This document shows positions 4,661 to 63,127 of a DNA stretch of 64,000 nucleotides, piece by piece. Every line of letters starts with the position of its first letter. The stretch's first letter is position 1. A model generated the notes under the pieces. It was not told where the DNA came from and made no database searches. It saw only the letters and a program-made list of their open reading frames with translations. Both the position numbers and the translations under genes were made by a program. Source of the DNA: Sipunculus nudus (Eukaryota > Annelida > Sipuncula > Golfingiida > Sipunculidae); the NCBI GenBank assembly GCA_026874595.1, contig CM049307.1, positions 32,537,862 through 32,601,861 on the forward strand, read 5' to 3'.

Positions 4661-5796
4661 ACAAGTGACCCATGGGTCATGACGCTCAGCTCAGTCAGCT
4701 GACTTGGAAGAGATTCGCAAAAGGAAATTTTATCATCTGAATGGTAGTATATACCCATTCAACTGAAGCATCAAACAGATTAACCAACAGGCCAAGATTG
4801 TGTCTGTATTTATATATCTCAAAAACAGAGAAAAATGCGTAAACTTTAAAAAAAAAATACAAGTGGCTCCACCAGTCTGCAAAAACTAATAAAAACACTT
4901 AATGGTCAATATCCATGCAAAAAATCATGGTGATCTATGCATCGATTGTTCAGATACTTCAGCTTTTGTATCAAATTTTCAATTATTCTGAGGGATACTT
5001 CGGAGTCTTATAGCTTGAAGGATATGGGTAACAGAGACCTAAATTCAGGTTTCCACAGACCTCCTTGCATGAAAAGATTGAAGATTCTAGGTCCAATTTG
5101 TGCCATATTAAGAGACGACTGCATCTTTAAAGGTCTCAAAAATAGAGAAAAATTAGTAAAAATTTGAAAAAATATGGTGGCACACCCAGTCTGCAGAAAC
5201 TGATGGAACACCTCATGATCCATATGTATGCAAAAATCATGACCATCAGTGTTGTAGTTATTGAGATACTGCAGCTTTTGTATCAATTTTTTCATTATTC
5301 TGGGGGTATTGTGGAGCCATACAGCTTAAAGGATATGTGTGTCAAGAATGAAGGTTCTAGGTCCAGTTGTTATGATTTGTGCCCTGTTAACAGATGTTCA
5401 TATCTTTAAAGGTTTCAATATTAGAGAAAAAATTTCCTAAAAATACCTAAACAAATACAGGTGGTGCCACCAGTCTGCAGAAACTGATGAAACACTCCAT
5501 GATCAATATCCATGCAAACAATAATGGTGATCTCTGCATCGATTGTTCAGATACTTAAGCTTTTGTATCAAATTTTCCATTATTCTGAGCTGTATTTTGG
5601 GCCCCATAGCTCGAAGGATATGGGTAACAGAGACTTAATTTCAGGTTTCCAAGGAGATTTTTCATGGACCTCTTAGAATTTCAAGTTACAAGATTCTAGG
5701 TCCAGCGGTTACAATTTGTGCCTGGTTGACAGACAGACAGACGGACAAAGAGTGATCGCAATAGCTCAGATGACTTACAGTCAGCTGAGCTAATAA
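4661..5796 (+). mobile_element. H1 rolling-circle-like nonautonomous element
   Basis: The 5' end ACAAGTGACCCATGGGTCAT contains the palindrome GACCCATGGGTC (5' hairpin) followed by GCTCAGCTCAG. The 3' end holds a hairpin, AGCTCAGATGACT-tac-AGTCAGCTGAGCT (5763-5791, one mismatch), whose right arm is the inverted match of the 5' subterminal GCTCAGCTGA. A GACAGACAGACGGAC microsatellite lies just inside the 3' end (about 5735-5755). The body is about three units of roughly 300 bp, each with a GGTGGC-CCACC site (4863, 5174, 5461), a 'gatcaatatccatgcaaa' motif and a 'gggtaacagagacctaat' motif. No protein is encoded. The layout fits Helentron-associated elements (HINE). It is closely related to the copy at 59802-62156. 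Confidence 0.75.
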
Positions 5797-5942
5797 AAAC
5801 TGTTAAAATTCTTTAAGCCATTATATTCAAGGGATGTATTTGGTACTGCATCCATTTGAAACATATTTAAGTAATGTATGTAATATTTATACATCATCAA
5901 CATTCCCTTCCACACTTTTTGTTTCTTTTTAAAGCATATTAC
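5797..5942. other. Short intronic flank beside the PKG exon
   Basis: Unremarkable AT-rich DNA between the H1 element and the exon. It holds the donor-proximal end of the downstream intron (minus strand). Confidence 0.5.
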
Positions 5943-6048
5943 CTTCGCAGAAATTTGATATTTTCTTCCTGCCTCTGGAGTCCAGTTTTCATCATGATAG
6001 CCTGGAAGACCCTCCGATCCAATACCCATACTCGAGCATTAGCCAAGG
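5943..6048 (-). CDS. PKG exon: end of cyclic-nucleotide-binding domain A
   Basis: This internal exon of a cGMP-dependent protein kinase encodes ALANARVWVLDRR followed by VFQAIMMKTGLQRQEENI and KFLR. This is the C-terminal helical part (B and C helices) of the first cGMP-binding domain, which in PKGs reads like VKLWAIDRQCFQTIMMRTG and ends near FLKSVP. On the minus strand the acceptor is a CTGTATTCCAG at 6049-6059 and the donor is AAG|GTAATA with GT at 5942-5941. The 106-nt length enters in phase 1 (two bases complete an Ala codon begun in the exon at 33574-33687) and leaves in phase 2 (AG, probably Ser, as in FLRS-V). The DRRVF and QRQEEN wording differs from the vertebrate protein but keeps the W, D/R, F-Q and IMM-TG positions. 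The following exon (VP..., second cGMP site) was not found in 1-5942. The identification rests on recalled family sequence, not on a search. Confidence 0.92.
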
Positions 6049-12236: not shown

Positions 12237-13354
12237 ACTAGAGGACCTCTTTTTTGTGACAAAAACAACTATGTGTCTCCCCTCACTGTTGACCACACTT
12301 TCCCAAATTTGAGGGGAAAAAAGGACCCCTTCAAAAGATTGGTGTTAACTTAAATCCTGGACTTCTGAAGATTTGACCTTGTCTGGTGATGATCAAGGTA
12401 ATTAACCAGGATATGAACTGATCAGAGTTTTTATTCCGGCTGATTTGACCTTGAAGATCCAGATGAAGATCACCAGATTTTGAGCTCCTCAAGGAACTTA
12501 ATTAAAACAATTAGTGTTTTAAATTTGAGGAAAAAATATGTGATACTTAAAAAATTATGGGGTTCACCAAAATTTTTATTTCACCCAATTAGACCTTGAT
12601 GATGTAGCTCAAGGTCGCCAGTTTGTAAATTGTTGGAGATATTGGTAGAGACAATTCACATTGAATTTCATGAAAATAAATCAAGTTGTTCAAAAGGTAT
12701 AGCATTCAAAAGTAATTTCTATCCTGGCTGATTTGGCCTTGAAGATCCTAATCAAGGTCACCTGTTTTAGAGCACCTTAGGGGACATGATCAAAACAATT
12801 AGTTTTGCAAATTTGAGGAAAAATTATGTGTTACTTCTAAAGTTATAGGGTTCACAAATTTCGCCTATTTGACTATGATATTGAAGGTCAAGGTCACCAG
12901 TTTACGAACTTGTCTGTGATTTTGGTAGAGACATTTCAACATAGGTCGCATTTCATGAAAATATATTTGGTGGTTCAAATGTCATATTGTTCTCAAATAC
13001 TTTAGATTCTGGCTGATTTGACTCTGAAGATCATGATCAAGGTCACCAGATTTCAAGCTCCTCAGAGAACTTGATTAAACAATTAGTGTTTTATATTTGA
13101 GAAAAAAATATGCAATACTTCAAAAGTTATGGGGTTCACAAAAAAATTCTATTTCGGCCTATTTGACCTTGTTGATGAAGGTCAAGGTCACTGGATTTCA
13201 AACTTGTCTAAGATATTGGTAGAAACAATTCTAATTTAAAATTCCATGATAAATTTTGAGATATTCAAAAGTTATTGCATTCACAAGATATGACACAGAC
13301 ACCGACGACAGTTATACACAATATGGTTCCCCCCATGAGGAAGGGAGACATAAT
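12237..13354 (+). mobile_element. H9 rolling-circle-like nonautonomous element
   Basis: Starts ACTAGAGGACCTC (5' mini-hairpin GAGG-A-CCTC) followed by TGTGTCTCCCCTC. The 3' end, GAGGAAGGGAGACATAAT, is its imperfect inverse and can fold with the preceding TATGGTTCCCCC. The body is about four degenerate units of roughly 270-300 bp with 'ttgaccttga..aggtcaaggtcacc', 'ttattggtagagacaattc' and 'caaaagttatgggttcac'. A short CACAGACACCGACGACAG stretch precedes the 3' hairpin. No ORF of interest. Confidence 0.68.
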
Positions 13355-15150: not shown

Positions 15151-15862
15151 CACTGTTATAACTTCTGACTACAACAGTTCACTGGATAAAGACTTTGTTT
15201 CATCAAAGTAGCTTTGCATTACAGCTGATAACATTCTGAAAAATGAGGAATAAAGCATACAGCTTTAAAGTGCTTTAACTTCCAAATGTCATTATAGAAT
15301 GTTTTTTACAAAGATCCAGCAAAGAACTTCATTGCATGGAGTCGTGATTTGACAGACAGCTTGCAGCTTTCAAGTGACCTTGAAATGCAGTTTGTTAATG
15401 GAACACACCATGGCGTTCACTACATCTGCTCTCATATTATCTCCTTTTACACATTATCAATGTGACTTTATCTGTGGGTTAGCACTGTGCATGACATTGA
15501 TGGAATTCACTGGGAGGAATATGAGTGTTCTGAATGTTTGTAAAAAGTTAATAGAGTCAAATAATCAACAGCAGCCGGTGGAACTGTCATTGTTTCTGGC
15601 ATTTCATGTATAAAACACCTGCACCTTTAGACCTCACAGGACAACAGGTGCTTATGAGTGCTGAAACAAGGTTCCTTCTAAGAGGGAAAAATAGGTCTAT
15701 GGTGGTTGTCACGGCAGGGTGCACGAATGTACCACCAGTGTCAGGATGATGCATTTTCACAGTTCAAGTATGACCTCATATTAAAGCAGTAATGGTTATA
15801 TAAGGTCAACATGAAGTCTTAAAGAAGAAGTACCTTACAAATGGTGAAGGAATTTTGAACTA
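15151..15862. other. Intronic DNA, nothing recognised
   Basis: No repeat family or coding signal identified. The 79-codon plus-strand ORF at 15374 shows no family signature. Confidence 0.45.
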
Positions 15863-18800
15863 GTGGCCCACGGGCCATGACGCTCAGCTGAATTCAAGGA
15901 ATGTTGAACAATGAGAAAGATGACTGCCAGAGTGCCAAAAACTCATGAATTTTATGAAATGTCGGGTTTACGAGAAAACTCTCCAAGACAGATTGACATG
16001 GCAAATTTCAGACCAATATCTAGAACCATTCCTGAGATATGAGCAATTTTCCCCAAAAGCACATGTACGTATGGACGCCACAGGAAAACAATTGCAGATG
16101 TGGTGCCACCAGTCTTGAGTACAAGATGGAGCAGGCCAAGGTCTATGGACATGCACATTTTCCGGCCAATATGGCACACCATTCCTAGGAAAAAAAATTA
16201 ATTTATTTTACAGAAACAGGAAGGTAGGTGGTGTCACCTGTCTGGTTTACGAGAAAATTTTCCAAGATGGATGGACATGCCAAATTTCAGACCAATACCT
16301 TGAACCACTCCTGAGATATTAGCAATTTTCACCTAGAGCAGATGTACGGATGGATGCCACAGGAAAATGATTGCAGGTGGCTGCACCAGTCTTGAGTACA
16401 AGATGGGGGAGTCCAAGATCTATGAATTTGGACAATTTCAGGCTAATATGACAAGTCATCCTGAGAAAAGGGCATTTATTTATTTTATAAAACCAGGTGG
16501 CGCCATCTGTCTGGTTTACCAGAAAATTTTCCAAGATGGATGGACATGCCAAATTTCAGACCAATACCTTGAACCACTCCTGAGATATGAGCAATTTTCA
16601 CCCAGAGCAGATGTACGGATGGATGCCACAGGAAAATGATTGCAGGTGGCTGCACCAGTCTTGAGTACAAGATAGCACCAGTTGGCAGGAACTGATGGAA
16701 CACTCCATGACTAATATTCATGCAAAGAATCATGGTGATCCATCATTAGTTATTCAGATACTCTGGCTTTTGTATCAAATTTTTAATTATTCTGAGGGGT
16801 ACTTTCAAGACCCATAGCTCGGAGGATATGGGTAACAGAGATCTAATTTCAAGTTTCCAAGGCGATTTTTTATGGACCTCCCTGGATGTCAAGTAAAAAG
16901 ATTCAAGGTCAAGTGGTTACAATTTATGCCCTGTTAACAGATGACAGCTTCTTTGAAGGTATCAAATTAGAGAAAAAAATTTGTAAAAATAAAAAATACA
17001 GGTGTCGCCACCAGATGCAGAAACTGATGAATCATTCCATGATCAATATCCATGCAAAGAATCATGGTGATCAATGCAGTAGTTCTTCAGATACCTGAGG
17101 TTTTGTATCAAATTTTCCATTATTCTGGGGGTACTTCGGAGCCCCATAGCTCACGGGTTATGGATAACAGAGACCTAATATCAGGTTTCCAAGGAGATTT
17201 TTTATGGACCTCCCTGGATGTCAAGTAAAAAGATTTCAGGTCCAGAGGTTACGATTTGTGCCCTGTTAACAGATGACAGCTTCTTTGAAGGGATCAAAAA
17301 TAGAGTAAAAATAGTAAAAAATTATAAAATACAGGTGGCACCACCAGTTTGCAGGAACTGATGGAACATTCCATGATAAATATCCATGCAAAGAACCATG
17401 GTGATCAATGCAATAGTTGTTCAGATACTTGAGGTAGTGTATCAAATTTTCGATTATTCTGGGGGTACTTCAAAGCCCCATAGCTCGGAGAATATGGGTA
17501 ACAGCTATCACCTAATTTCAGGTTTCCAAGGAGATTTTTTATGGAACTCCCTGGATGTCAAGTAGGAAGATTCCAGGTTCAAAGGTTATGATTTGTGCAC
17601 TTTAACAGATGACAGCTTCTTTGAAGGTATCAAAAATAGAGAAAAAAATAGTAAAAATAAGAAAAATACAGGTGGCCCCACCAGTTTGCACAAACTGACG
17701 GAACTCTCCATGATCAATATCCATGCAAAGAATCATGGTGATCAAGGCATAAGTATTCAGATACTGAAGCTTTTGTATCAAATTTTTTATTATTCTGGGG
17801 GTACTTCGGAGACCCATAGCTCGGAGAATATGGGTAACAGAGACCTAATTTCAGGTTTCCTAGGAGATTTTTAATGGACCTCCCTGAATGTAAAGTTAGA
17901 AGATTCCAGCTCCAGTGGTTATGATTTGTGCCCTGTTAACAGATGACAGTTTCTTTGAAAATATTAAAACAGAGAAAAACTAGAATATCAGCAGAAGCTG
18001 ACAAAAGCCCTCAGCCAAAAGAACAGTGTTTAAAGGTGGTAACAGTAACAAGTACTAAATATCTGTTCTCACATGGATGTATATCTGTACATGTCTCAGT
18101 TATAAATTTAAACTGGAGAGGTATGTACCATGATTCATAATTAATCCACCAAATGCTTCCTGAAAAATAAGCTTCTAAGTTTTATTCTATTATAAGCTCT
18201 GTGACCTTGAAAAGTAGGTCAAGGTCACCCATCTATTGTGAATCCTTTTAGAGATATCCCGCTCACAAGCCCAAAGTTGAAAAATCTGATAAAAATTCAT
18301 AAAAAATCAGAAATTGTAGGTGGCGCCACCAAACTTGTGTAGCAGGTACAGACTATCAGTCCAAATTATCATAGTAAGTTTTGTGAAAATCCACCAAATG
18401 GTTCCTGAGTAATAAGCATCTAAGTGTTTTTCTATAATCAGCTCTAAAATGTAGAAAAATAGGTCAAAGTCACCCATCTTCGAACTTGACCGAGATTTTG
18501 TCGATATACATCTGTACCGAGGAAATAAAATCCTGATGGTGAATCCTTTTCCAGATATCCGGCTCACAAGGTAAAAGTTAACGGACGCCGGACGGACAGA
18601 CGGACAGACAGACGGACGGACAGCTTGGGTGACGACAATAGCCCATCAGCCTAAGGGCTGAGGGCTAAAAATTGTAAAAATTAATCAAATACAGGTGGCG
18701 CCACCAGTTTGCAGGAACTCGAGGAACACTCCATGATCAATATCCAGGCAAAGAATCATGGTGATCAAGGCAGTGGTTATTCAGATACTGAAGCTTTTGA

Positions 18801-19649
18801 ATCAAATTTTTGATTATTCTGGGGGGGTACTTCGGAGCCCCATAGCTCACAGGTTATGGGTAACAAAGACCTAATTTCAGGTTTCCAAGGAGATTTTTTC
18901 ATGGACCTCCCTGGATGTCAAGTAAGAAGTTTCCAGGTCCAGAGGTTATGATTTGTGCCCTGTTAACAGATGACAGCTTCTTTGAAGGGATCAAAAATAG
19001 AGAAAAAAATTGTAAAAATTAGAAAAATACAGGTGGTGCCACCAGTTTGCAGGAACTTACTGAACACTCCATGATCAATATTCATGCAAAGAATCATGGT
19101 GATCAAGGCAGTATTTATTCAGATACTGAAGCTTTTGTATCAAATTTTTTATTATTCTGGGGGGTACATACTTCAAAGCCCCATAGCTCGGAGAATATGG
19201 GTAACAGCTATCGACACCTAATTTCAGGTTTCCAAGGAGATTTTTTATGGACCTCCCTGGATGTCAAGTTAGAAGATTCCAGGTCCAGAGGTTATGATTT
19301 GTGCCCTGTTAACAGATGACAGCTTCTTTGAAGGTGTCAAAAATAGAGAAAAAAAATTGTAAAAATTAGAAAAATACAGGTGGCGCCACCAGTTTGCAGG
19401 AACTGACGGAACACTCCATGATTAATATTCATGCAAAGAAGAGACCCATAGTTTGGAGAATATGGGTAACAGACACCTAATTTCAGGTTTCTAAGGAGAT
19501 TTTTTCATGGACCTCCCTGGATGTCAATTAGAAGATTCCAGGTCCAGTGGTTATGATTTGTGCCCTGTTAATGGACAGCCAGACGGCCGGACGCCGGACA
19601 AAGGGTGATCACTATTGCTCACATGACTTTCAGTAAGCTGAGCTAATAA
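15863..19649 (+). mobile_element. H1 element, long copy, interrupted by H4
   Basis: The 5' end has a GGCCCACGGGCC hairpin and GCTCAGCTGAA. The 3' end is 'tgctcacatgactttcagtaagctgagctaataaa' in H1 style, preceded by a GACGGCCGGACGCCGGAC microsatellite remnant. The first 800 bp carries a different module ('tctggtttacgagaaaattttccaagatgg', also found in H6). From 16670 there are about seven tandem units of 330-345 bp (unit joints near 16675, 17004, 17334, 17671, 18691, 19030 and 19377) with GGTGGCGCCACCAGTTTGCAG, 'gatcaatatccatgcaaag' and 'gccctgttaacagatgacag'. An H4 element (17979-18670) sits in one unit at an A|A site. Unit translations give ORFs of up to 90-93 codons but no conserved protein. 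Confidence 0.75.
17979..18670 (+). mobile_element. H4 rolling-circle-like element nested in H1
   Basis: Starts ACTAGAATATCAGCAGAAGC: the 5' hairpin TCAGC-agaa-GCTGA is followed by GCCCTCAGCC. The 3' end GGCTGAGGGCTAAAA is the exact inverse of GCCCTCAGCC and pairs with AGCCCATCAGCC to form the terminal hairpin (18640-18666). A GGACAGACGGAC microsatellite (18589-18622) precedes it. The flanking H1 sequence (GAGAAAA ... AATTGTAAAAATTA) rejoins without a target duplication. One GGTGGCGCCACC lies at 18319. Confidence 0.78.
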
Positions 19650-23980: not shown

Positions 23981-25189
23981 ACTAGAATACGGGTAGTCGA
24001 CAAGCGACTACGTGTATCCGCCTAAATCAGAGTGGAACAGGTGAAGTGAGGCATGGATTGAGTGGCAAGGGAAAATAGAGTGAATTGTTGCATATTAGCA
24101 TGGATGTCTGCAGCCAAATTGTCTATGTAGGTTGCGCCACCTACCACAAAATCCAGAAAGCCGTCCAAGTTGTATACATATGCAAAATTTAAGGCAGATA
24201 AGTCAAACCACTACATGTATATGAGTGATTTTTGCCTGCCGCAGACAAACAGACAGACGCTGTGCAAAAATGGTTGCAGGTGGTGCCACCAGTTTTGCTT
24301 ATGATAAAGAGCTATGTGAGAACTATACACATGCAAAAGCTCTCCAAGGGCTACATTTGTGCAAAAAAATTTTCCTGATCGGTCAAACGGTTCCCGAGAT
24401 ATGAGCTTGGATGTCTGCTGCATAAACTAGGATGTAGGTGGCACCACCTGTCATAAAATCAAGAGAGCTGTCGGGGATGTATAAACCTGCAAAATTTTAG
24501 GCAGATATGTCAAACCACTGCCGAGATATGAGTGATTTTATCCCATGGCAGACAAACAGACGGGAGCTGTGCAAAAATGGCTGCAGGTGGCGCCATCAGT
24601 TTTGCGTATGATAAAGAGCTATGTGAGGTCTATACACATGCAGAATTTTGTCCCAATCGGTCAAACGGTTCCCGAGATATGAGCTTGGATGTCTGCAGCG
24701 TAAACGTGAATGTAGGTGGCGCCACCTGTCATAAAATCAGAAAAGCTATCCAAGATGTATAAGCATGCCAATTTTCAGGTGAATTAGTAAAACCACTGCA
24801 GAGATATGAGTGATTTTAACCCAAGGCAAAGGAACAGATGGACACTGTGCAAACACGGTTGAAGGTGGCGCCACCATTTTTGTGTATGTTATAAAGCTCT
24901 CCAAGGGCTACATTTGTGCAAATGAATTTTCCTGATCGGTCAAACGGTTCCCGAGATATGTGGGTTTATGTGTGGAAACAGATGCACAAACGGACGCAGA
25001 GCGCAGAGGAAAGGTCAGAGGTCAAAACAAAATAGAGGCGCAGCAGTTCACATGTGACCCGAACATAATCCTGGGTTTCGTAAAATTCCGCCCAGTGGTT
25101 ACAGAGAATTCTCCGGGCACCTACGCAGCGGCGGCGGCAGTGGGCTGAAAACATAGTTTCCGCAAAACTCTGTTTTGGCGGATACAATT
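23981..25189 (+). mobile_element. H2 rolling-circle-like element (copy A)
   Basis: Starts ACTAGAATACGG, then a perfect 5' hairpin (GTAGTCG-acaag-CGACTAC) and GTGTATCCGCC, the inverse of the 3' terminal GGCGGATACA. The 3' hairpin is TCCGCAAAAC-tct-GTTTTGGCGGA. A GCGGCGGCGG stretch lies just inside it, near 25126. The body is about two units of roughly 280 bp, each with two GGTGGCGCCACC-type sites (exact at 24715 and 24864) and 'gatcggtcaaacggttcccgagatatga'. Nested in the H5 element 21723-28397. Confidence 0.8.
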
Positions 25190-25444
25190 ATATCAGGTAC
25201 CCTGGCACAGCTGACCAGAAGTGGGCTGGCAGGAGTTTCACAATGCCAGTGAATACAATATGAGCCTCCAAATAAAGTCAATAACCTGCCTAATTTTCCA
25301 GCTTTCATTTTCGAATTTGAGATTTTAACAGATTAAATTGTTATGTAAAAATGCTGTGAAAATTTAATAAAAAAATTCTTGCATGAAAAAATATGCCATG
25401 GCCAAATTTAAGGAAATTATTTTCTATTTATGCTAATAACTTAA

Positions 25445-27465
25445 ACAAAAGACCAAGGGGTCTAACGTTCACTCTGTGAATTACTGTGCATGATGGCAGG
25501 TGATTAAAAAAAAGGTGAATGTGAAAATACCGTTCATTCCTTTCCAAGAAGACACTGTCCTATTTCACAAGGAAGGTGGTGCCACCTGTCTGGTTTATGA
25601 GAAACCTTTCTAAGATGGATGCACATGCCAAATTTCAGACCAATACATTGAACAAGTCCTGAGATATGAGCAATTTCACCCAAAGAAAATGTACGGAGGG
25701 ATGCCACAGGAAAATGATTGCAGATGGCATCACCAGTCTTGAGTGTTAGTTTGAGGAGTCCAAGATCTATGGACATGCGCAATTTCAGGCCAATACAGCA
25801 AATCACTCCTCAGTAAAAAGGCATTAAGTTAATCTATGAAAACAGGAAGGTAGGTGGCGCCAACTGTCTGGTTTACGAGAAAACTTTCTAAAATGGATAG
25901 ACATGCCAAATATCAGACCAATACCTTCAACCACTTCTTAGATGTGAGCAATTTTCACCCACAGCAAATGAACCGATGGGCGCCATGGGAAAACAACTGC
26001 AGATGGCGCCATGAGTCTTGAGTACAAGATCAATGGATATGCACAGCTCAATACATTGAACCACACCTGAGATTTGGACTGTTATCTAAAAGACACCCAG
26101 GTTTGTACTCCACAGAGAGGTCACCCATCATTATTAATACAAGTTTCAGAAAGATCAGTCTAAGAGTCTCAGAGAAGACTCTGTTTTGGTGGATTATAAC
26201 AAATAAACACTTAATGACATATTTTATATAAGAGCAGAAAAGACCAATACAGCCTGCTGAAAGTAGCTAAATACAGGTAGCGCCACCTGCAGGTCAAAAT
26301 CATTAAGCAGTCACATGATCAATATTCCTGTGAAATTTGAAACTGAAGGCTGCAGCAGTTCCTAAGATATTTGGTAACAGACAATACATCCTGTATGGAA
26401 ACACACCAATTAAGTTGTCAAATTTTGCAATTGACACAATTTGAAGTTCCATAGATATGCCAACTTGAAAATGACTGAATTTATACTCAAATTATTCCCC
26501 TTCCTCCTAGGAACTTTTGACTATGATATGAAAGCCAAAGTATTTATACTTTATGACATATCTTGGAAAAAGCAGAAAAGACCATTACAGCCTGCTGAAA
26601 GTAGCTAAACACAGGTAACACCACTTGCAGGTCAAAATTATTAAGCAGTCACATGATCAATATTCCTGTGAAATTTGAAACTGAAGGCTGCAGCAGTTCC
26701 TCAGATATTTGGTAACAGACAATACATCATGTATAGAAACACATCAAGTTGTCATATTTTGCGACCATCAAAATTTGAAGTTCTGTAGAGACGCCATCTT
26801 GAAAATGACTTGTTTGAATTTATACTCAAATTATTCCCCTTCCTCTAAGAAACTGCTGACTATGATATGAAGGCCAAAATATTTATACTTTATGACTTTA
26901 TCTCGGAAAAAGCAGAAAAGACCATTACAGCCTGTAGAAAGTAAGTCAACACAGGTGGCGCCACCTGCAGGTAGAAATCATTTAGCAGTCACATGATCAA
27001 TATTCCTGTGAAATCTGAAACTGAAGGCTGCAGCGGGTCCTCAGATATTTGGTAACAGACAATACATCATCTAAAGGAACACATCAAGTTGTCAAATTTT
27101 GCAATCAACACAATTTGAAGTTCCTTAGAGATGCCATCTTGAAAATGACTTGATTAAATTTATACTAAAATTATTCCTTTTCCTCTAAGGAACTGTTGAC
27201 TATGATATGAAGGCCAAAATATTATTACTTTATGACTTATCTTGGAAGAAGTGGAAAAAGACCATTTTGTCCCGCAGAAAGTAGGTCAACATAGGTGGCG
27301 CCACCAAAGCTTATTTTTGCATGTCCATCCCATGATCAGTAATTCTGCAAAGTTTCATGAAGGTAGCTGCTGTGGCTGTTGAGATATCTGGTAACAGACG
27401 GTGGACAGTTGACAGTGGACGGCAGACGCTGCGCCATGGCACAAGTTCACAGAGTGAACTAAAAA
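25445..27465 (+). mobile_element. H6 rolling-circle-like element
   Basis: Starts ACAAAAGACCAAGGGGTCTA with hairpin AGACC-aagg-GGTCT, then GTTCACTCTGTGAA (25467-25480), the exact inverse of TTCACAGAGTGAAC at the 3' end (27446-27459). That 3' end is itself a perfect hairpin GTTCAC-AGA-GTGAAC. A GACAGTTGACAGTGGACGGC microsatellite-like stretch precedes it. The first third carries the 'tctggtttacgagaaa' module shared with H1 at 15863. The rest is three units of about 330 bp with 'gcagtcacatgatcaatattcctgtgaaa' and GCGCCACCTGCAGG (exact palindromes at 26954 and 27294). No protein. Confidence 0.78.
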
Positions 27466-31011: not shown

Positions 31012-31017
31012 CTAGTA

Positions 31018-38812: not shown

Positions 38813-39931
38813 ACTAGACATTTCTTGGCACCGCTGGTGCCATAGTATCGCCAGTATATGCATAATATAAAAGAAATCTGTCCATTAGTTTTTGACTTAT
38901 AATGCTCAGAGTGCTGTTAAGATATTCATGATTTTATGTTTTTCACCAAATATGGGAATATTCAAGGTCAAGGTCACTCTCATAGTAACGGTCATGACCC
39001 CAAATCAATAAACTGCATTCCAAAATATCCAACATTTGAAAAAAAAATTAAATTTAAAAAAAAATAATTTAAATTAAATTAAATTTTAAAATTAAATTTA
39101 AAATTAAATATACCTCATTCCATAAACCATATCTATATACATGCATAACATGAAAGAAATCTGTACATTACTGTTTGACTTATAATGCTCACAGTATATA
39201 CTGTCAAGTGGCAATGATGGGGTATTCAAAGGCACAAAAAACAAGAAAAGGACAACAGGTGGCGCCACCTATCTACTGCAAAAGACAAAACTATCCAAGA
39301 TCTTCCGTCAACTTGATTTTTGGACCAATCCATGCATCCCTTTTTAAGATATTCATGATTTTATGTGATTATCACCATATATGGTAATATTCAAGGTCAA
39401 AGCCACTCTCAAAGGAAAGGTCATGACCCCAATTTTAATATACATCATCCCATAACCCATACCTTTGTACAAGCATAATATTAAAGAAATCTGTCAATCA
39501 GTTTTTGACTTGTGATGCTAAAAGTACTAGCTGTCAAGTGGCAATGATGGGGGTATTAAACAGCACAAAAACAAGAAAAGGATACTAGGTGGCACCACCA
39601 GTTTCCGGTACATGACATCACTATCCAAGATCTTTGTCCAACTTGATTTTTGGATAAATCCATGAAAGATTTCTTGAGATATTTAAGAATTTGTGTGATT
39701 TTCCCCAAAAATGGATCTATTCAAGGTCAAGGTCACTCTCCTAGTTGAGGTCATGACCCCATTTTAAATAGGCTTCGTCCTCTCACCTATATCTATAAAT
39801 GTGTCAAGTTTGGAAAAGATCCTTGAAATATTTTTTGAGTTATTGTGTCCAAAAGAAATCTCTGCGGCGGCGGCGGCGGCGCAACCGTGCCTAAACCATA
39901 GTATCTCCAGACTATGTCTGGCGATACAATA
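38813..39931 (+). mobile_element. H3 rolling-circle-like element nested in the LINE
   Basis: Starts ACTAGACATTTC, with a perfect 5' hairpin GGCACC-gct-GGTGCC and AGTATCGCCAG. The 3' end CTGGCGATACA is its inverse and forms the terminal hairpin GTATCTCCAGAC-tat-GTCTGGCGATAC (39901-39927). CGGCGGCGGCGGCGGCG lies near 39866. The body is three units of about 320-350 bp with 'ttcaaggtcaaggtcactctc', 'ggtcatgacccca' and, in one, GGTGGCGCCACC at 39259. Removing 38813-39931 restores the LINE reading frame with no duplicated bases. Confidence 0.82.
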
Positions 39932-40773
39932 ATATATTTTTTACCCTTGTTGCCCACGTATACTTTCCTACTTCATCTAGCCTATATAATTTAGAATATA
40001 AATGCTTAGGGTACCTATAATTTTCCATTCTTAGTAATTTAACCCAATAAGAAATACATTTTAACATAAATCTGATTTTCAGAGAAAACCTTCCACACTC
40101 ACCAAGTGCTGCAGCATTTGGTGAAGAAGAGTTAATCCCAAGTACGTATTTACAAAATTAATTGTGGACCTGTTCTATTTTATCTTGTTTTTTTGTCACC
40201 CCATAATTCACTGCCATATGAAAGTACAGGTACAACCATCTTATCAAATAAAGAAAATGATTTTTTACAGTAATATATTTATTATCAGAAATGAATTTTC
40301 TTATCATTAAAACAGTTTTATTTGCTTGACACACAAGATGTTTTTCCATTTCTGCCCATTTCAGACAAGAAGTAAATACCCCTCCCAAATACCTATAACT
40401 ATTGACTACTTTGATCAAGCTTTCTTCCTTTATAATACCATTTTTCATATTTCTTTAACTTCCCCCCATTTCTAAATACAACAACTTTAGTTTTGTCCAC
40501 ATTCAACTTCATTCCATAACGGTTACAAAAATACTCAAGTTGATCAATTTGATTCTATAATCTTCCAACTGTGTCTCCAAAACAAACAATATCATCAGTG
40601 AACATTAGCATTGTCAAAGGTTGTGTTTCCTGGTCTACAAATATACCTTGATTTAATCCTGCATTGTATAATACAATTCATTCATGAAGAAGGTAAATAA
40701 AAGTGGGCTTATCACACAACCCTGTCTTATTCCAATATTACATGAAAAATATTCTGAAAGCCCCTCATTTGTA
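39932..40773 (-). pseudogene. LINE ORF2: RT motifs B, C, D-E and thumb region
   Basis: Between the two nested insertions, in order on the minus strand: TNEGLSEYFSC, GIRQGC, ISPLLFTFFMN, FTDD (catalytic aspartates at 40591-40602), LEYFCNRYGMKLNVDKTKVV, then YRYLGGVFTSCLKW and QANKTVLMIRKFI. A frameshift near 40440 and stop codons are present. Confidence 0.85.
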
Positions 40774-42241
40774 ACTAGAATACGTGTAGTTGACAAGCGA
40801 CTATGTGTATCCGCCTAAATCAGAGTGGAACAGGTGAAGTGAGGCATGGATTGAGTGGCAAGGGAAAATTGAGTGTTGCATATTAGCATGGATGTCTTTA
40901 GCCAAATTGTGTATGTAGGTTGCCCCCAATACCACAAAATCCAGAAAGCCGTCCAAGTTGTATACATATGCAAAATTTAAGGCAGATAAGTCAAACCACT
41001 ACATCATGTATATGAGTGATTTTAGCCCGTGGCAGACAAACAGATGGACGCTGAGCAAAAATGGCTGCAGGTGGCGCCACCAGTTTTGCGTATGATGAAG
41101 AGCCATGTGAGATCTATACACATGCAAAATTTTAGCCCAATCGGTCAAACAGTTCCCGAGATATGAGCTTGGATGTCTGCAGTGTAAACATGAATGTAGG
41201 TGGCGCCACCTGTCATAAAAAAAGAAAAGCTATCCAGGATGTGTACGCATGCCGAATTTCAGGTAAATTAGTCAAGTCACTGCAGAGATATGAGTGATTT
41301 TAACCCAAGGCAGACGAACAGATGGACACTGTGCAAACATGGTTGCAGGTGGTGCCACCAGTTTTTGTGTATGTTATAAAGCTCTCCAAGGGCTACATTT
41401 GTGCAAAAAAAAATTTTCCTGATCGGTCAAACGGTTCCCGAGATATGAGCTTGGATGTCTGCAGCATAAACGTGAATGTAGGTGGCGCCACCTGTCATAA
41501 AATCAGAAAAGCTATCCAGGATGTGTACACATGCCAAATTTCAGGTGAATTAGTCAAGTCACTGCAGAGATATGAGTGATTTTAACCCAAGGCAGACGAA
41601 CAGATGGACACTGTGCAAACATGGTTGCAGGTGGCGCCACCATTTTTTGTGTATGTTATCAAGCTCTCCAAGGGCTACATTTGTGCAAAAAATTTTTCCT
41701 GATCGGTCAAACGGTTCCCGAGATATGAGCTTGGATGTCTGCAGCGTAAACGTGAATGTAGGTGGCGCCACCTGTCATAAAATCAGAAAAGCTATCCAGG
41801 ATGTTTACGCATGCCTAATTTCAGGTGCATTAGTCTAGTCACTGCAGAGAAATGAGTGATTTTAACCCAAGGCAGACGAACAGATGGACACTGTGCAAAC
41901 ATGGTTGCAAGTGGCGCCACCATTTTTTGTGTATGTTATAAAGCTCTCCAAGGGCTACATTTGTGTAAAAAAAATTTTCCTGATCGGTCAAACGGTTCCC
42001 GAGATATGTGGGTTTATGTGTGGAAACAGACGCACAAACGGACGCAGAGCGCAGAGGAAAGGTCAGAGGTCAAAACAAAATTGGGGCGCAGCAGTTCACA
42101 TGTTACCCGAACATAATCCCGGGTTTCGTAAAATTCCGCCCAGTGGTTTCGGAGGAGTTCTCCGGACACCTACGCCGCGGCGGCGGAGGCGTGCAGCTGA
42201 AAACATAGTATCCGCAAAACTCTGTTTTGGCGGATACAATA
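40774..42241 (+). mobile_element. H2 element, best-preserved copy C, nested in the LINE
   Basis: Starts ACTAGAATACGTG, with the 5' hairpin GTAGTTG-acaag-CGACTAT and GTGTATCCGCC. The 3' hairpin GTATCCGCAAAAC-tct-GTTTTGGCGGATAC is at 42208-42237, preceded by CGCCGCGGCGGCGGAGGCG. The body is about three tandem units of 280 bp with exact GGTGGCGCCACC at 41070, 41199, 41481, 41630 and 41761. Each unit also holds 'cctgatcggtcaaacggttcc' and 'gagatatgag'. The 85-121-codon ORFs are unit translations. Removal rejoins the LINE codons (...QSCV | TNEG...) with no target duplication. Confidence 0.85.
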
Positions 42242-43303: not shown

Positions 43304-43374
43304 ATGGTTTTGAAAAGTGTCAATTTTATTTAAAACATATTGATCCTGTGTTGGTTGATAATTAGTGTTTTTTT

Positions 43375-48700: not shown

Positions 48701-49736
48701 CCATAATGTCAATCAAGTTTAAGCTCACTAAGTTAACCCTGAAAACAGGATATACATCAATCTTTTCGAACTGATTTCATGGTCATGCCTCAAATTGTTA
48801 CTCCCGATTGGGGGATCAATTTTTCTTAAGCTAATGAAGTCAACGCTGCAAAAACACATTTATTAATATATACAAGTCTTATGATCACCAAACCTTGGCT
48901 GATATTTCAGATGAAAATGTTCTCCAAACCCTGACTATTCTAATGCGACTTTACCACATCACAAGACCCACCAATGTAGGTTTTTATGCAGTCTACTTAC
49001 AGTGATGTATCACACATATTGTTGGTTTCCTAGAAACCATTGCGACTTGATCAATGACAGCTATTAAACAGTGGAGATACTGCCAGCGTTTGTTAATGCC
49101 TAAAAGGCACAGAAAAATTCTTGGATGAGGTCAGAACAATTCTTGGATGAGGTCAGTTAGAAGAAACATAAATATTGCCAATGTAGGAAGCTATTAAATC
49201 TTTTGGCGCATCTCTGTTCAATCTCCATGTCATATCATCATTCATCCTCAAGATATAATCAATAACCCTCACCCAAGTGGCAGATATTCTTCTTGCAAAG
49301 ATTATGTACTTCCCTTTCCCCTGGTGTAGACTTATATAGCCATTTTGCTTGGTTTTCTCGTTTGTCTGTTCCCTATGTCAGGACTGTTTTTGTGACTTTA
49401 TTTGAGCCTCATATATCTCTCTCTGACAGAGCAGTAGAGGGTATAGATTTCCATACATATTGTCAGAAAACATGAATACTCAGGTAAACTAAACTGACAA
49501 CAGGTATATTCAAAACTCCAAATGAAAAGCATGAATCTTTGCATTGAAAATACCCTTTTTTAAAAAAAAAGTTAGCCAGTCTATTTTTTTGTTTTACTGT
49601 CTATTGAGACAAATACTTCAGAAAAAAATATTAAAATAATAATATGGTTTTGCTGCGAGGACAAACTATATTTCTAATTTTCACAAAGTTAACTTTTGCA
49701 AGTATCATGATTATTTATGACAAGATGAAACAAAAA
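45762..49736. other. DNA without recognised genes
   Basis: AT-rich with ORFs up to about 96 codons and no family resemblance. A possible decayed H-type 5' end ('acaagggatccatgcatcac') at 47500 is too weak to claim. Confidence 0.45.
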
Positions 49737-52700
49737 TAAGTGACCATGGGTCATGATGTTCAATTGACTAGGAAGACATTCACAAAATGAATTTTATCAC
49801 CTGAATGCCAATTTTTTTTTAGGTGGAATCCCTATTCAACTGAAGCATAGTTTGGAGAATATTGGTAACAGAGACCTAATTTCAGGTTTGAGGGGAGATT
49901 TTTCATGGACCTCCCTAGATGTATCTCAAGTAAGAAGAATCTAGGTTCAATGGTTACAATTTGTGCCCTGTTAACAGACCACCACATTTATTAAGGTCTC
50001 AAAAATTGAGAAAAAATTGTGTAAAAATTTAAAAAAATCAAGGTGGCACCACCAGTCTATATTAATCAATGAAACACACCATGATGAACATGCGTGCAAA
50101 AAATCATGGTCATCAGTACATTAGTTGTTCAGATACTGGAGCTTTTGTATCAAATTTTTTAATTACTCTAGGGGGTACTTCTGAGCCCCATAGCTGGGAG
50201 AATATGAGAGACAGAGACCTCATTTCAGTTTTCCACAGAGAATATTCATGGATCTACCTGGATGTCAAGTTAGAAGATTCAAGGTCTAATGGTTACGATT
50301 TGTGCCCTGTTAACAGATGATCACTTCATCTGAAGGTCTATCAAATAGAGAAACAAGGGACCTATGGGTCACGGCGCTCAGCTGTAATATATGATAAAAA
50401 AATATGTTTAAGACTGAGGCACATGCTAATTTTATGTGGTAAAAAAATAAGCTGTATTATGAGCTGTTGTTGTTTAGCTAATGTATGATTTTGATAGTAC
50501 CTTTGGAGACAGGGAAGAGGATTGATTTTATTTAATTTATTAACAAATGGAGTGCTATTGTCACACAGATTTTGACTTGGCCATATAACTTATAAGCAGA
50601 ACATATAATATAAGAGTTTAACTATTTATTAAAAAAAATTACAAATATTGTCCCAAATATAATTTTTATTAAAAATAATACAAGAATCGTATGATTTTTT
50701 TTAAATAAAATAAACTGAAATGATTATTAAAATAATATTAAAGAATATATTCATGAATGCAGTCATGAATACATTTCGAAAGTATTTGCACTGGTATTCA
50801 TATACTTTCATTTTTGCCTGAATTCCCATTCTTATGAAAGAAATTTTATAATGGAGTACATATTCATATTCGTATTTAAATACAGTTGCAAAGTATTTGC
50901 ACCATGTCAGGTATTTATTCAGTTTTCACCAAACAATGATGTTGAGAATCCAGAATATACAAAATTCACAAATTTAAATAATGATCATAAGTACCTGGTT
51001 TTATTGCTTTTATTTATATTAAAAAAAATAAATGTAATATATTCATTTTGGACTAATTTCACATCAATGTACACACTAGACACAGTAGGAATCTAGATTA
51101 ATATTATCAACTGCATCTTTGTCTATCATTAATTTCTTTCATATGATCCCTAATGATTAGTAATGAATATATGATTTGCTTTATTATCATTAAAATTGAA
51201 CTGAAAAATACCATAGGTGACTGCATGGTGTTATTTGGAATACGTGACATTCTATCCATCAATAAAAGATTCTTATATCATCAGTAACTGTTAACAGTTA
51301 ATTTCCTGTTATTATCAACTAACAAATTCCTTTTCTATTTTTCTTTAATTTGTTATTAAAAACCAATAAAAATTGATTAATTTATTGTTATGTTGTTGGT
51401 TGAAACTACTAGATGAGTTGGGTTGGACACCTGGATCAACTGTGGCTGGCCATAAGCTGCCTGGCTGCCCCAGTTTATGCCTTGCTTCAAGCATGCATAA
51501 TTTGCTGAAAGTTCAATAAGGTCAACATAAATGTGACTCAAGAGGGGCTGGAGAGAGCCAAGGTCTGACATGGTCTCATAAAAACATTCATAAAAGCTAC
51601 AATTTTTTGCCAATTTCTTTCAGCTTTCTAAACTAAAAAGCTGAAATCCTTATGTGTGCATGATATGAAAATTATACCAACAGTGCTCACAGATAACAAA
51701 CGTGCCATGGTCAAAGTTGGGCAAAATTTAAGGTACTAATTTTATATTTATACTGATAACTTATAAAATTTGAAAAATTCAGAACTAATTTTGGGTATTC
51801 AATTAAATCTTGATTAAATAATGTTACATCCCTGACAAAAAAATCTCTAGCTTCAGCAATCCTCTTGTTAAGGGAGTAAATATATTTCTTGATTTTTTAA
51901 AAAGTGCATTATGTTTGGGCCCATAACTTAAAACAATTACGCAATACTGACATCATTTCTGGCATGTGCATAGAGAATGTATAGAAATATATGTATATTA
52001 TATTTGATTAAAGTCAGATCAGTGGTTTTGATATTAGGCACTCTTGAAGTGTAACAATGAGTTTTTAATGGAAAAATGAAGTTTTTAATTAATATCTCAA
52101 AGGCATTAAGTCCTAGTGACCAATTTCTTGGCATGGTAGGGGATTTTTGAGACATCTAATTGTATGCCAAATTTAAGGAACTGAGAGCTAAAGCTGGGGA
52201 GCTGAGCTCTTGCAAACTGCATGACACTAGCTTGATGTAAACAATATTTACATGGTGCTTGAAAACTTGAATAAAATCTACAGTTTTTGATCAACTGGTT
52301 TCAAATTTTTGGTGTTTACAGACAAGATATTAACAAAATCATGCTGTGAAAATTAAATCCAGAGTACTTACAGGAAAAAAACGTGCCATGGTCAAAGTTG
52401 GGCAAAATTTAAGGTACTAATTTTTTATTTTTGTTAATATTTTAAAAAATTTTAAAGATTTTGATCTAATTTTGGGTATACAATTTAATTTTGATTAATT
52501 AAAGTTATATTACTTGAAAAAAAGTATATAGCTTTAACCAGTTTTGTGTTAAGTGATCAAATATCTTTCCTGATTTTTCCAAAATGCATTATGTTTGGGC
52601 CCATAACTTTTTTATATTATATAATACAGACATAATTTCTGGCATGTACATAGGAACTATATAGAGGAATATTTATGGTAAATATGAGGAAAGACAGATG

Positions 52701-53287
52701 AGTGGTTTTGATATTAGGCAGTCCTGAAGCGTGAAAATAGGTTTTTAATAAAAAAAAATGAGGTTTTTCCTTAATTTCTCAAGGGAACGAAGTTGCAAAG
52801 ACCCAGTTTTCGGCTTGGTAGGAGATCTTGGGAACATCTAACATAATGCCGAATTTTGGATTCATTGGTCGTACGGTTTCAAAACGTGCCACATCTACGG
52901 ACGGATGGACGGACAGACGGACGGACGGACGGACGGACAATGGACCACAACTATAGCTCAGATGACTTATAGTCAGCTGAGCTAAAAACGCAGAAAAAAT
53001 TCCAGCAAAAATCCAAGTGGCACCACCAGTGTGCAGGAACTGATGAAACCCTCAGTGTTGAAAATGCATACAAAGAATCATGGAGATCGATGCATTAGTT
53101 GTCAGATACTGGAGCTTTTAAATCAAATTTTTAATTATTCTGGTGGTTACCTCAGAGCCCAAAAGCTTGGAGGATATGGGTAACAGAGACCTAATTTCAT
53201 GTTTCCAAGGATATTTTTCATGGACCTCCCTGAATGTCAAGTTAAAAAATTCTCGGTCCAATGGTTAAGATTTGTGCCCTGTTAACC
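49737..53287 (+). mobile_element. H1 element interrupted by H5
   Basis: The 5' end is a decayed AAGTGACCATGGGTCATGAT. H1 units follow with 'gggagatttttcatggacctcc' and GGTGGCACCACCAGTCT (50042). H5 begins inside a unit at 50353, and the H1 unit resumes at 52987 ('ccaagtggcaccaccagtgtgcagg'). The H1 sequence stops after 'gtgccctgttaac' near 53287 without a 3' hairpin, where the minisatellite region begins. Confidence 0.68.
50353..52986 (+). mobile_element. H5 element, intact copy nested in H1
   Basis: 5' ACAAGGGACCTATGGGTCAC-GGCGCTCAGCTG; 3' hairpin AGCTCAGATGACT-tat-AGTCAGCTGAGCT (52955-52983), the inverse of the 5' GCTCAGCTG, preceded by (GGAC)n at 52895-52938. The ends equal those of H1, but the body is unrelated to the H1 units. 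The body holds a doubled segment of roughly 690 bp ('gtgccatggtcaaagttggg' at about 51700 and 52382). No protein. The best reference for the other two H5 copies. Confidence 0.78.
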
Positions 53288-59801: not shown

Positions 59802-62156
59802 ACAAGTGACCCATGGGTCATGACGCTCAGCTGACTGGGAAGAGATTCGCAAAAGGAAATTTTATCATCAGAATGGTAGTATATACCCATTCAACTGAAG
59901 CATCAAACAGATTAACCAACAGGCCAAGATTTAGTCTGTATTTATATATCTCAAAAATAGCGAAAAATGTGTAAATTTTTAAAACTAGAATACGGGTAAC
60001 CGACAAGTGACTACATGTATCTGCCAAAATCGGATAGTGAGGCATGGATTGAGTGGCAAGGGGAAATAGAGTGAGGTATGTTGCATATTAGCATGGATGT
60101 CTGCAGCCTAAATGTGTATGTAGGTTGTGCCACCTACCACAAATCCAGAAAGCTGTCCAAGTTGTATACACCTGCAAAATTTTAGGCAGAAAAGTCAAAC
60201 CACTACATGTATATGAGCGATTTTTGCCCATGGCAGACAAACAGACAAACACTGTGCAAAAATCTTTGCAGGTAACCCCTCCAGTTTTGTGTATGATAAA
60301 GACCTATGTGAGATCTAAACACATGCACAATTTTGGCCCAATCGATCAAATGGTTCCTGAGATATGAGCTTGGATGTGTCCAGTGTTAACTAGAATGTAG
60401 GTGGCGCCACCTGTCATAAAATCAAGAAAGCTGTCCACGATGTATAAACCTGCAAAATTTTAGGCAGTTATGTCGAACCACTACAGAGAAATGAGTATTT
60501 TAGGCCACGGCAGACTAACAGACAGACGCTGTGCAAACATTGTTACAGGTGGCGCCACCATTTTTTGTGTATGTTACAGAGCTATCAAAGGGCTACATTT
60601 GTATAAATTTTATTTCCTGATCGGTCAAACGGTTCCCGAGATATAAGCTTGGATGTCATCAGCGTGAACGTGAACGTAGGTGGCGCCACCTGTCATAAAA
60701 TCAAGAAAGCTATCCTGGATGTATACACATGACGAATTTCAGGTGAATTAGTCAATTCACTGCAGAGATATGAGTGATTTTAACCCAAGGCAGATGAACA
60801 GATGGACACTGTGCAAACATGGTTACAGGTGGCGCCACCATTTTTTGTGTATGTTATAAAGCAATCCAAGGGCTACATTTGTATCAATTTTATTTCCTGA
60901 TCGGTCAAACGGTTCCCGAGATATGAGGGTTTATGAGTGGAAACAGACCCACAAATGGACACTGGATAGACAGGAAAGGTCAGAGGTCAATGCAAATTGG
61001 TTAGGCACCAGTTCACATGTGACCCGATAATAGGTGTAAGTTTGGGAAAAATCGGTCCATTAGTCTCCTAGGAGCTCTCTGGAAAGGAACGCAGCCGCGG
61101 CGGAGGAACTCGGTTAAAAACATAGTATCCGCAAAACTTCGTTTTGGCGGATACAAAAATACAGGTGGCTCCACCATTCTGCAGAAACTAATAAAAACAC
61201 TTAATGGTCAATATCCATGCAAAAAATCATGGTGATCTCTGCATTAGTTGTTCAGATACTTCAGTGTTTGTATCAAATTGTCCATTATTCTGAGGGATAC
61301 TTCGGAGTCCTATAGCTTGAAGGATATGGGTAACAGAGACCTAATTTCAGGTTTCCACAGGCACCTTTCGTGGGCCTCCTTGCATGACAAGAATGAAGAT
61401 TCTAGGTCCAGTTGTTGCGATTTGTACCCTGTTGACAGATAACCACATCTTTAAAGGTCTCAAAAAAAAGAATAAAATTCGTAAAAATTTAAAAAAAAAT
61501 AGAGGTGGCACACCCAGTCTGCAGAAACTGATGGAACAGCTCATGATCAATATGTATGCCAAAAATCATGACCATCAGTGTTGTAGTTATTGAAATACTG
61601 CAGTTTTTGTATCAAATTTTCCATTATTCTGGGGGGGGGGGGGGGTATTTTGGACCCATACAGCTTAAAGAATATGGGTAACAGAGACCTAATTTCAAGT
61701 TTCCATGGAGACTTTTCATGGGTCTCCCTGTGTGTCAAGAATGAAGATTCTTGGTCCAGTTTTTATGATTTGTGCCCTGTTAACAGATGTTCATATCTTT
61801 AAAGGTCTCAAAAATACAGAAAAATTTCGTAAAAAAAACCGAACAAATACAGGTGGTGCCACCAGTCTGCAGAAACTTATGAAACACTCCATGATCAATA
61901 TCCATGCAAACAATTATGGTTATCTCTGCATTAGTTGTTCAGATACTTCAGCTTTTGTATCAAATTTTCCATTATTCTGAGCTGTACTTTGGAGTGCCAT
62001 AGCTCAAAGGATATGGGTAACAGAGATCTAATTTCAGGTGTCCTGGTTAACGGACGGACAGACGGACAGACGGACAGACAGACAGACGGACAGACGGACG
62101 ACGGACAAAGAGTGATCGCTATAGCTCAGATGACTTTCAGTCAGCTGAGCTAAAAA
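59802..62156 (+). mobile_element. H1 element interrupted by H2
   Basis: 5' ACAAGTGACCCATGGGTCATG followed by ACGCTCAGCTGACTGGG; 3' hairpin AGCTCAGATGACT-ttc-AGTCAGCTGAGCT at 62122-62150, preceded by a (GGACAGAC)n microsatellite at 62053-62106. The body is very close to the copy at 4661-5796 and holds three units, one with a 15-base G run (61631-61645). H2 copy D (59984-61157) splits the first unit at an A|A site. Confidence 0.78.
59984..61157 (+). mobile_element. H2 element (copy D) nested in H1
   Basis: Starts ACTAGAATACGGGTA, with a 5' hairpin relic (TAACCGACAAGTGACTA) and ATGTATCTGCC. The 3' hairpin TCCGCAAAAC-ttc-GTTTTGGCGGA is preceded by GCCGCGGCGGAGG. Exact GGTGGCGCCACC at 60400, 60549, 60679 and 60829, spaced 149, 130 and 150 bp. 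Confidence 0.8.
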
Positions 62157-62249
62157 CTGCAACCCGTGATGATTGCTATTTTAAACAATCCCACAGACAG
62201 TTTTTCAATATATTTTCATGAAAACAGTGAAATTCCCTTGTATGAAAAC
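62157..62249. other. Short spacer between the H1 and H2 copies
   Basis: Nothing recognised. Confidence 0.4.
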
Positions 62250-63127
62250 TGCCACCTACCACAAAATCCAGAAAGCTGTCCAAGTTGTATACATATGCAA
62301 AATTTTGGGCAGATAAGTCAAACAACTACATGTATATGAGTGATTTATCCCACAGCAGACAAACGGAAGGACTTGTGCAAAAATGGTGACACTTGGTGCC
62401 ACCAATTTTGGGTATGATTAAGAGCTATGTGAGATCTATACACATGCAAAATTTCAGGGGGATATGTCCAATAAGTCCTAAGATATAAGCCTGAATGTCT
62501 GCAGTGTTAACATAAATGTAGGTGGCGCCACCTGCCAAAAAAAATCAAGAAAGCTATCCAAGATGTATAAACATGCAACATTTTAGGCAGATATGTCAAA
62601 CCACTGCCCAGATATGAGTGACATTATCCCACAGCAGACAAACAGACATGCTGTGCAAAAATGGTTGCAGGTGGCGCCACCAGTTTTGTGTATGATAAAG
62701 AGCTATGTGAGATCTATACTCTTGCAAAATTTTGGCCAAATCGCTCAAAAAGTTCCCGAGATATGAGCTTGGATGTCTGCAGCGAAAACTAGAATGTAGG
62801 TGGCGCCACCTGTTATAAAATCAAGAAAGCTATCCAGGATGTTTATGCATGCCGAATTTCAGGTAAATTAGTCAAATCACTGCAGAGATATGAGTGATTT
62901 TAACCCAAGGCAGACGAACAGATGGACACTGTGCAAACATGTTTGCAGGTGGCACCACCATTTTTTGTGTATGTTATAAAGCTATCCAAGTACAAAATGT
63001 ACAAAATTTTTTTCTGGATCGGTCAAATGGTTCCAGAGATATGGGGGTTTATCTGTGGAAACAGACGCCCAAATGGATGTTGGGCAGAGAGGAAAGGCCA
63101 GGGGTCAACACCAATTGGTTAGGCAAA
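62250..63127 (+). mobile_element. H2 element fragment (copy E), both ends missing
   Basis: Begins inside the first body unit ('gccacctaccacaaaatccag') and stops at 'ccaattggttaggca', where copy D continues with 'ccagttcacatgtgac'. Exact GGTGGCGCCACC at 62521, 62670 and 62799. The 3' part may have been displaced by the tRNA-like/LINE insertion and could resume beyond the window. Confidence 0.7.

Follow-up and report, generated by a model that had tools for sequence, protein, structure and literature searches.

The closest described systems are the Cg_HINE elements of the Pacific oyster, with 11 elements described from a single genome, some of which combine common ends with different monomers (PMC7492417; this and the other accounts are cited from the extracts available). 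They carry a subterminal repeat with a complementary inner repeat, a microsatellite (often GTCY/GTCC), a short satellite-like array, an inverse subterminal repeat and a palindrome, and they lie in T-rich targets without duplication; two conserved segments are common to CL4 and CL1/2/10/13, whose monomers are otherwise dissimilar, and, according to the same extracts, autonomous Helentrons could not be related to the oyster HINEs. DINE-1 and the HINEs of mites (PMC4067079) follow the structural definition with a subterminal repeat 2-4 bp from the 5' terminus and a palindrome close to the 3' terminus, and have a TT target and a Rep/helicase/endonuclease partner; the pearl, CvA and DTC84 elements (PMC5139131, PMC11136912) are Helitron-type elements with central repeats. 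Elements resembling all of these are described here from a 64-kb stretch of the genome of Sipunculus nudus (C2:32537862-32601861; the window), about 36% of which is covered by the elements listed in Table 1. The end architecture itself is already known: it is that of the oyster HINEs, found in a different genome. Three findings are new, i.e. a Helentron with a long open frame that is physically linked to HINE ends and to satellite monomers, Rep lineages that differ in their ends, and a shared palindrome.

The elements of the window are, with high confidence, HINEs, i.e. non-autonomous Helentrons, which are rolling-circle transposons. End families were delimited by reading the window sequence and by end comparisons, and the strand (-) was assigned from end structure. 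A preliminary description of the window, which rightly pointed to Helentrons and HINEs, had proposed eight families, each with its own pair of matched left and right ends. When the left 60 bp of each element were compared with the inverted right 45 bp of the same element, matches of 13 (family I), 9 (I-like), 10 (II), 10 (III), 11 (IV), 14 (V) and 12 bp (VI) were found, whereas mixed pairs (the off-diagonal control) gave a mean of 5.6 and a maximum of 12 bp (I left with I-like right); in 20,000 draws of random pairs, 10 bp were reached in 0.5% and 12 bp in 0.07%. Inverse subterminal repeats, which are about 11-15 bp long by the HINE definition, are present as exact 9-14 bp repeats in all seven elements (six families); the exact match of family VIII is 8 bp only. 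The right-end hairpin, which is the inner complement at the biological 5' repeat, exceeds mononucleotide shuffles in 7/7 elements (p 0.00-0.02) and in family VIII (p 0.02). The end architecture in the window is real, and six end families (I, II, III, IV, V and VI) are confirmed by the tests made, with a seventh (VIII) weaker; the ends of family I were found on two different bodies.

The 5' ends read TTAG or TTGTATC and the 3' ends CTAG-T or CTTG-T; the left end of family II is ACTAGAATA. The start predicted as ACTAGA or ACAAGG is of the ACWAG type in most families, with family V starting ACAAAAG, and the GGAC/CGG microsatellite that was also predicted is, by eye, weak in V and unclear in VIII. 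The canonical Helitron signature (5' TC, 3' CTRR, insertion between A and T) was not found: CTAG-T fits CTRR and CTTG-T does not, and the target is A-A (T-T). The short left hairpin, i.e. the 3' palindrome, is significant in an energy test for III, IV and V (p 0.02-0.03), and dyads near this end are visible by eye in I, II, III, IV, V and VIII. Two results weigh against the HINE assignment at this end, i.e. that the left hairpin of the remaining elements is not above shuffles (I, 0.23; I-like, 0.10; II, 0.39; VI, 0.29; VIII, 0.21) and that family VI has no convincing 3' palindrome. A further end family of the same layout (ACTAGATGTGTCGG...GGCGGGGGCATAA) was seen outside the window at C7:~71196656-71198382 (-).

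Genome-wide (1.43 Gb searched), the ends of families III, VI and V were mapped with queries carrying 100 bp of flank (best 40 of 6984, 6689 and 9510 candidate places scored, respectively; rows counted by eye). For family III, 34 of 40 non-self rows (E = 0) stop at q1216-1227 on the right, one at q1236 and five earlier, and 11/16 pieces start at q97-99 on the left, the rest at q85-94. For family VI, 28/29 non-self rows start at q96-101 (one at q83), and all 14 rows that reach q1565 stop by q1575, with three others stopping at q1534-1552. For family V, 25/33 rows start at q99-102 and eight at q77-105; no non-self row extends past q2130, and one separate piece of flank (q2133-2216) matches elsewhere. 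The ends of these three families lie mostly at the predicted bases, and copy ends coincide with the hairpins, as the preliminary description had anticipated.

The absence of target-site duplications was likewise upheld. In each of three nested insertions (3/3), an A run on the + strand was the target and nothing is duplicated beyond the ambiguity of the A run; the empty sites are visible because uninterrupted family I sequence is also present in the window. At copy c of family II, the coding homology of the interrupted LINE frame resumes past the insertion one or two bases off frame, which is in rough agreement only. Cut-and-paste miniature inverted-repeat transposable elements (MITEs) with terminal inverted repeats would also have inverse repeats near both ends; the repeats found here are, however, subterminal and asymmetric, the three empty sites are without duplication and the partner of family I encodes Rep and helicase, which makes a MITE origin highly improbable. 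For the HINEs, the published layout (PMC4067079, as far as its extracts go) has a consequence for polarity: the end called 5' in the preliminary description is therefore the 3' end by structure, and its labels are reversed by this convention.

A search of the genome with Pfam Helitron_like_N gave at least 143 matches (150 scored of 195 candidates), and the surroundings of eight were followed. Rep and PIF1 were matched in all copies on C17, C13, C11 and C7, and the motifs PHIH or PHAH and YxxxY were seen with these domains. The endonuclease match is above the Pfam cut-off in C13 and in a lineage termed clade A (C11), and just under it in C17 (23.4 of 24.5 bits), so that the composition which defines Helitron2 (Rep/helicase without endonuclease) was not found; in a C7 copy with a 1658-codon open frame, the frame ends before the endonuclease region.

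An autonomous Helentron of the family I type is located at C17:~35625478-35640363, with both family I ends about 14.9 kb apart, a GTCC microsatellite and, between the ends, an open frame of 2342 codons in which Rep, PIF1 and the weak endonuclease match lie. Its 5' part contains family I monomers with the 12-letter palindrome GGTGGCGCCACC; the 337-bp units with GGTGGCGCCACC are about 78-89% identical to family I of the window (longer matches). Its ends are identical to those of window copy a at 53/61 and 31/36 positions, and to those of copy d at 57/60 and, across the last 36 bp, 33/36. In contrast to the Cg_HINE elements as described in the extracts of PMC7492417, one Helentron is linked here through both ends and the monomers; for family I this answers, for this genome, the question left open in the oyster, and it shows how tandem monomers can travel inside an autonomous element. 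Paired copies of this clade diverge at the 3' end (C5/C17, 98.2% identical; C3/C7, 96.7% identical), and no 5' end was found for the C7 copy in the stretch fetched. A Herpes_teg_N match was observed ahead of Rep in C17 and C13, where clade A has OTU and STPRs-type matches.

Clade A comprises two copies (C7:31563965-31589515, and C11) that are 98.3-99.2% identical over 25.5 kb, between ends of one and the same layout, and have different flanks. They start with ACAAGATGACCAGAGGTCACGCGCTTGCCGGAAAT and end with a microsatellite and the hairpin GCTTGCGGAAATCGAAGATTTCCGGCAAGCAA, preceded by 148-bp repeats; the subterminal repeat is GCTTGCCGG. The open frame has 2235 codons in the C11 copy and 1882 codons in the C7 copy, and the unit also contains internal copies of the right end. 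Structural searches of the first 16 kb for its ends were unsuccessful, the element being 25.5 kb long. OTU protease and STPRs-type repeat matches lie ahead of the Rep domain in the clade A frame (L042:1-2814, -). Directly behind the C11 copy (C11:~50371249-50374841), further left ends and HINE ends follow head to tail, an arrangement that is expected from bypass of a rolling-circle terminator.

A third lineage (C3:57.29 Mb) is represented by a truncated copy, in which a Rep fragment and the front of the helicase are joined directly to a family II array with its right end; the Rep part of this copy is 31-38% identical to the others. The copy may be what is left of a family II Helentron, or it may have arisen by chance fusion.

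The direction of the open reading frame (ORF) in the family I clade agrees with the reversed polarity. The ORF of clade A and that of the C3:57.29 Mb fragment, in turn, run opposite to the published majority orientation, and they head a set of observations that weigh against the assignments made here. One Drosophila Helentron with its ORF in minus orientation is on record in the extracts of PMC4067079; in difference from DINE-1 and the mite HINEs as presented there, both orientations occur here in one genome (clade A vs the family I clade). The other observations are as follows. In a 30-kb stretch of C17 there is a single family I 3' end (within 4 mismatches of 19) and there are two 5' ends upstream, at 7637 and ~8361 of that stretch, and therefore the exact left limit of the C17 Helentron is one of two; outside the terminal 36 bp, its 3' match to copy d drops to 46/63 (over 60 bp). 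The C13 copy, with a protein 89% identical, has the family I 3' end in degraded form only (4/19 mismatched). For the third lineage, an exact motif search across the 14.5 kb read gave no left end. Among the eight Rep matches followed, finally, family I was the only one with a full autonomous partner, none being seen for III, IV, V, VI and VIII. The autonomous Rep-helicase element that the preliminary description had sought was found for family I and in part for family II.

That description had also proposed one common enzyme that reads structure. On this reading, one Rep would recognise structure plus an ACTAG-type end and mobilise all families whatever their hairpin sequence, as the common layout, the ACWAG-type end of most families, and the occurrence of CTAGT and CTTGT ends in copies 96.7% identical would allow. 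The Reps of clade A and of the family I clade are, however, only about 31-33% identical and have different ends, including their subterminal repeats; two Reps that are 62% identical carry the same family I 3' end, and the sequence of the family I subterminal repeat is kept between autonomous and non-autonomous copies. The sample behind these contrasts is small (8 of at least 143 Rep matches), and we consider a single structure-reading Rep unlikely. The contrasts fit cognate pairs of Rep and end, and to that extent the co-evolving lineages suggested in the preliminary description; with different Rep lineages and different ends in one genome, specificity for structure or for sequence is directly testable.

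Each element has a subterminal repeat plus inner complement at its biological 5' end, a short microsatellite, a tandem array and an inverse subterminal repeat, and most families have a palindrome close to the CTAG-T or CTTG-T 3' end. The ends would be nicked by a Helentron protein that combines Rep (HUH and paired-tyrosine motifs) with PIF1 helicase and AP-type endonuclease; one strand would then be peeled off and copied, and it would be inserted into a T-tract (A-tract on the + strand) without duplication; each end family would have its own cognate Rep lineage. We infer this biochemistry, and transposition as such, from the sequence.

The bodies had been described as unrelated, which proved wrong for most of families I-V and the 269-bp array (body type VII): GGTGGCGCCACC is common to these six body types. 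Type VII stands behind the left end of one family I copy and of one family V copy; by eye among the best 40 places, VII stretches were seen at six non-self family V places of the genome (five rows from q232; C14:21935357), and at most other family V places the left-end pieces stop at q163-174. Allowing up to two mismatches, GGTGGCGCCACC occurs at 51 sites of the window, of which all but two (8627 and 39875) lie in the arrays concerned; 20 first-order Markov sequences had 0-2 sites apiece, and permuted palindromes averaged 0.52. In the genome there are 111,729 perfect copies vs 14 of the reversed string, and 4,777 copies of the 16-base CAGGTGGCGCCACCTG vs 0. Families VI and VIII lack the site even when two mismatches are allowed, and the two 31-kb stretches with the clade A copies lack it when one mismatch is allowed. 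Across six family consensuses the palindrome columns are 94% identical and the downstream columns 33% (expected, 27%); 10/12 palindrome columns are invariant, and the consensuses of VII and V are each off at one base. Of the window sites with a single mismatch, 11/21 are transitions at the central CpG, as if most units had once held a perfect copy.

Collinearity was examined over the 115 bp behind the palindrome, with the palindrome left out, at 25 shifts and for 29 cross-family class pairs; II-VII pairs were omitted because BLAST already shows their similarity. Zero shift was best in 22/29 pairs (mean 10.8 vs 6.4 at other shifts) and not in I-VIIa, I-IV, IIa-IV, IIa-V, VIIb-V, III-Vlast and IV-V; a binomial p overstates this evidence, because the class pairs share sequences. 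By family pair, 10/14 are above z 3, I-VII and III-V are at 2.2, and I-IV and IV-V give no signal. Single-pair shuffles of 36 class pairs were more mixed: p is at most 0.01 in 16 of them and above 0.05 in 15. The 16 include an artefact, I-VIIb (z 31), caused by the unit at 16645; this unit is a chimeric junction, taints the other VIIb rows as well and was left out of the shift test. The 15 pairs above 0.05 and the seven exceptions of the shift test speak against common descent of the bodies. Because of the collinear similarity behind the palindrome, the bodies of families I-V and of type VII most likely go back, nevertheless, to one ancient tandem monomer, of which GGTGGCGCCACC would be the best-kept part; the place of family IV, with one unit only, is least sure.

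Two readings of the palindrome were weighed. It may be a functionless relic of the common monomer, as would be suggested by the similarity that most family pairs show, in collinear order, outside the palindrome; conserved segments in otherwise dissimilar bivalve monomers are also published (CL4, PMC7492417; BIV160/Cg170, PMC5139131; in the extracts available). Plain descent should, however, decay evenly, against the 94% and 33% observed, a contrast that gene conversion could also produce, and we regard a relic as a tentative option. Alternatively, selection may maintain it, either as a binding site for a host factor or an element protein or as a single-strand hairpin in rolling-circle copying. 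The same conservation contrast, the excess of perfect copies over the reversed string, and the central CpG transitions, as decay of perfect copies gives, point to selection; against it stand the lack of the site in VI, VIII and the clade A stretches, the one-base departures in the consensuses of VII and V, the general lack of an unusually strong dyad in the monomers, and the fact that transposition alone explains a high copy number. Selection in one of these forms is a serious possibility, somewhat short of an even chance. The fuller proposal, that GGTGGCGCCACC is a selected functional and candidate protein-binding site, present once or more per monomer in Helentrons of several end families and scattered in more than 100,000 perfect copies, is put forward tentatively. 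As the site would have been kept while ends and monomers diverged until hardly recognisable, the elements would have spread more than 100,000 perfect copies of a candidate site; if the palindrome is protein-bound, transposons would here have spread binding sites on a large scale. The palindrome may resemble known factor sites, namely CTCF- or E2F-like cores.

A palindrome common to tandem monomers of several families differs from DINE-1 and the mite HINEs as given in the extracts of PMC4067079. Its novelty is claimed with reserve, since motifs kept across diverged monomers of bivalves have been published before, likened here by description only: a conserved palindrome near the repeat junction of DTC84 and two motifs kept despite divergence in BIV160/Cg170 monomers (PMC5139131, PMC11136912), and the two Cg_HINE segments (PMC7492417), which may or may not be the same as GGTGGCGCCACC. 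A full-text literature search for GGTGGCGCCACC gave an unrelated occurrence only, and one for the shorter GGTGGCGCC gave none on transposons or molluscs by title among the matches listed.

Two further ideas on the monomers were discarded. A rule that every monomer has a strong dyad whatever its sequence was rejected, with 3/24 units at p < 0.05 against first-order Markov resamples; breakpoints inside the palindrome (~16663, 34967, 62250), suggestive by eye, were dropped, as genome copies of family IV have their array limits at other places.

Table 1. Helentron-type elements and related features of the window (positions within the 64-kb stretch)
Feature	Position	Strand	Remarks
Family I HINE copy a	4661..5793	-	3' end 4661 (ACAAG/palindrome side), 5' end 5793
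Family VIII HINE-like element	12237..13353	-	288-bp repeats; weakest ends (ACTAGAGGACCTC...TATGTGTCTCCC / GGGAGACATAA); without GGTGGCGCCACC
Family I HINE copy b	15859..19646	-	composite: 269-bp array (VII), then 332-338-bp array; family IV nested
Family IV HINE	17979..18668	-	nested inside family I array; without target duplication; genome copies matched
Family II HINE copy a	23981..25187	-	monomers alternate 149/129 bp
Palindrome GGTGGCGCCACC, example site	24715..24726	.	
Family V HINE	25443..27465	-	269-bp array, then 340-bp array; consensus ends from genome copies
Family VI HINE	29057..30525	-	145-bp repeats; without GGTGGCGCCACC; without convincing 3' palindrome; consensus ends from genome copies
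Family I-type left end with second, mostly non-repetitive body	33830..36830	-	right end degenerate, limit by eye
Family II HINE copy b	34720..35238	-	internal deletion; within the 33830..36830 element
Family III HINE	38812..39933	-	consensus ends from genome copies
Family II HINE copy c	40774..42239	-	inserted in LINE reverse transcriptase frame
Family I HINE copy c	49736..53286	-	right side truncated; split by I-like element 50353..52985
Family I-like HINE (same ends, other body)	50353..52985	-	nested in family I copy c; without target duplication
Family I HINE copy d	59802..62153	-	split by family II copy d
Family II HINE copy d	59984..61156	-	nested in family I copy d; empty site in the A run near 4853 of copy a
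Family II body fragment, truncated	62239..63127	-	

Other tandem arrays of the window, with no tie to HINE ends, are located at 53319-53613, 6601-6720 and 7834-8162 (36/72-bp, 23-bp and 63-bp units). The frame interrupted by family II copy c belongs to the remains of a non-LTR retrotransposon with RVT_1 (42259-43895, -). A tRNA-Ala-like sequence (anticodon GGC; 63161-63232, -) was the sole match to Rfam at the gathering threshold, and it lies just before an ORF at 63285-63770 (+) that has no Pfam match. This ORF contains CDVELNPGP, which we take to resemble a 2A-type ribosome-skipping motif, and may front a non-LTR retrotransposon.

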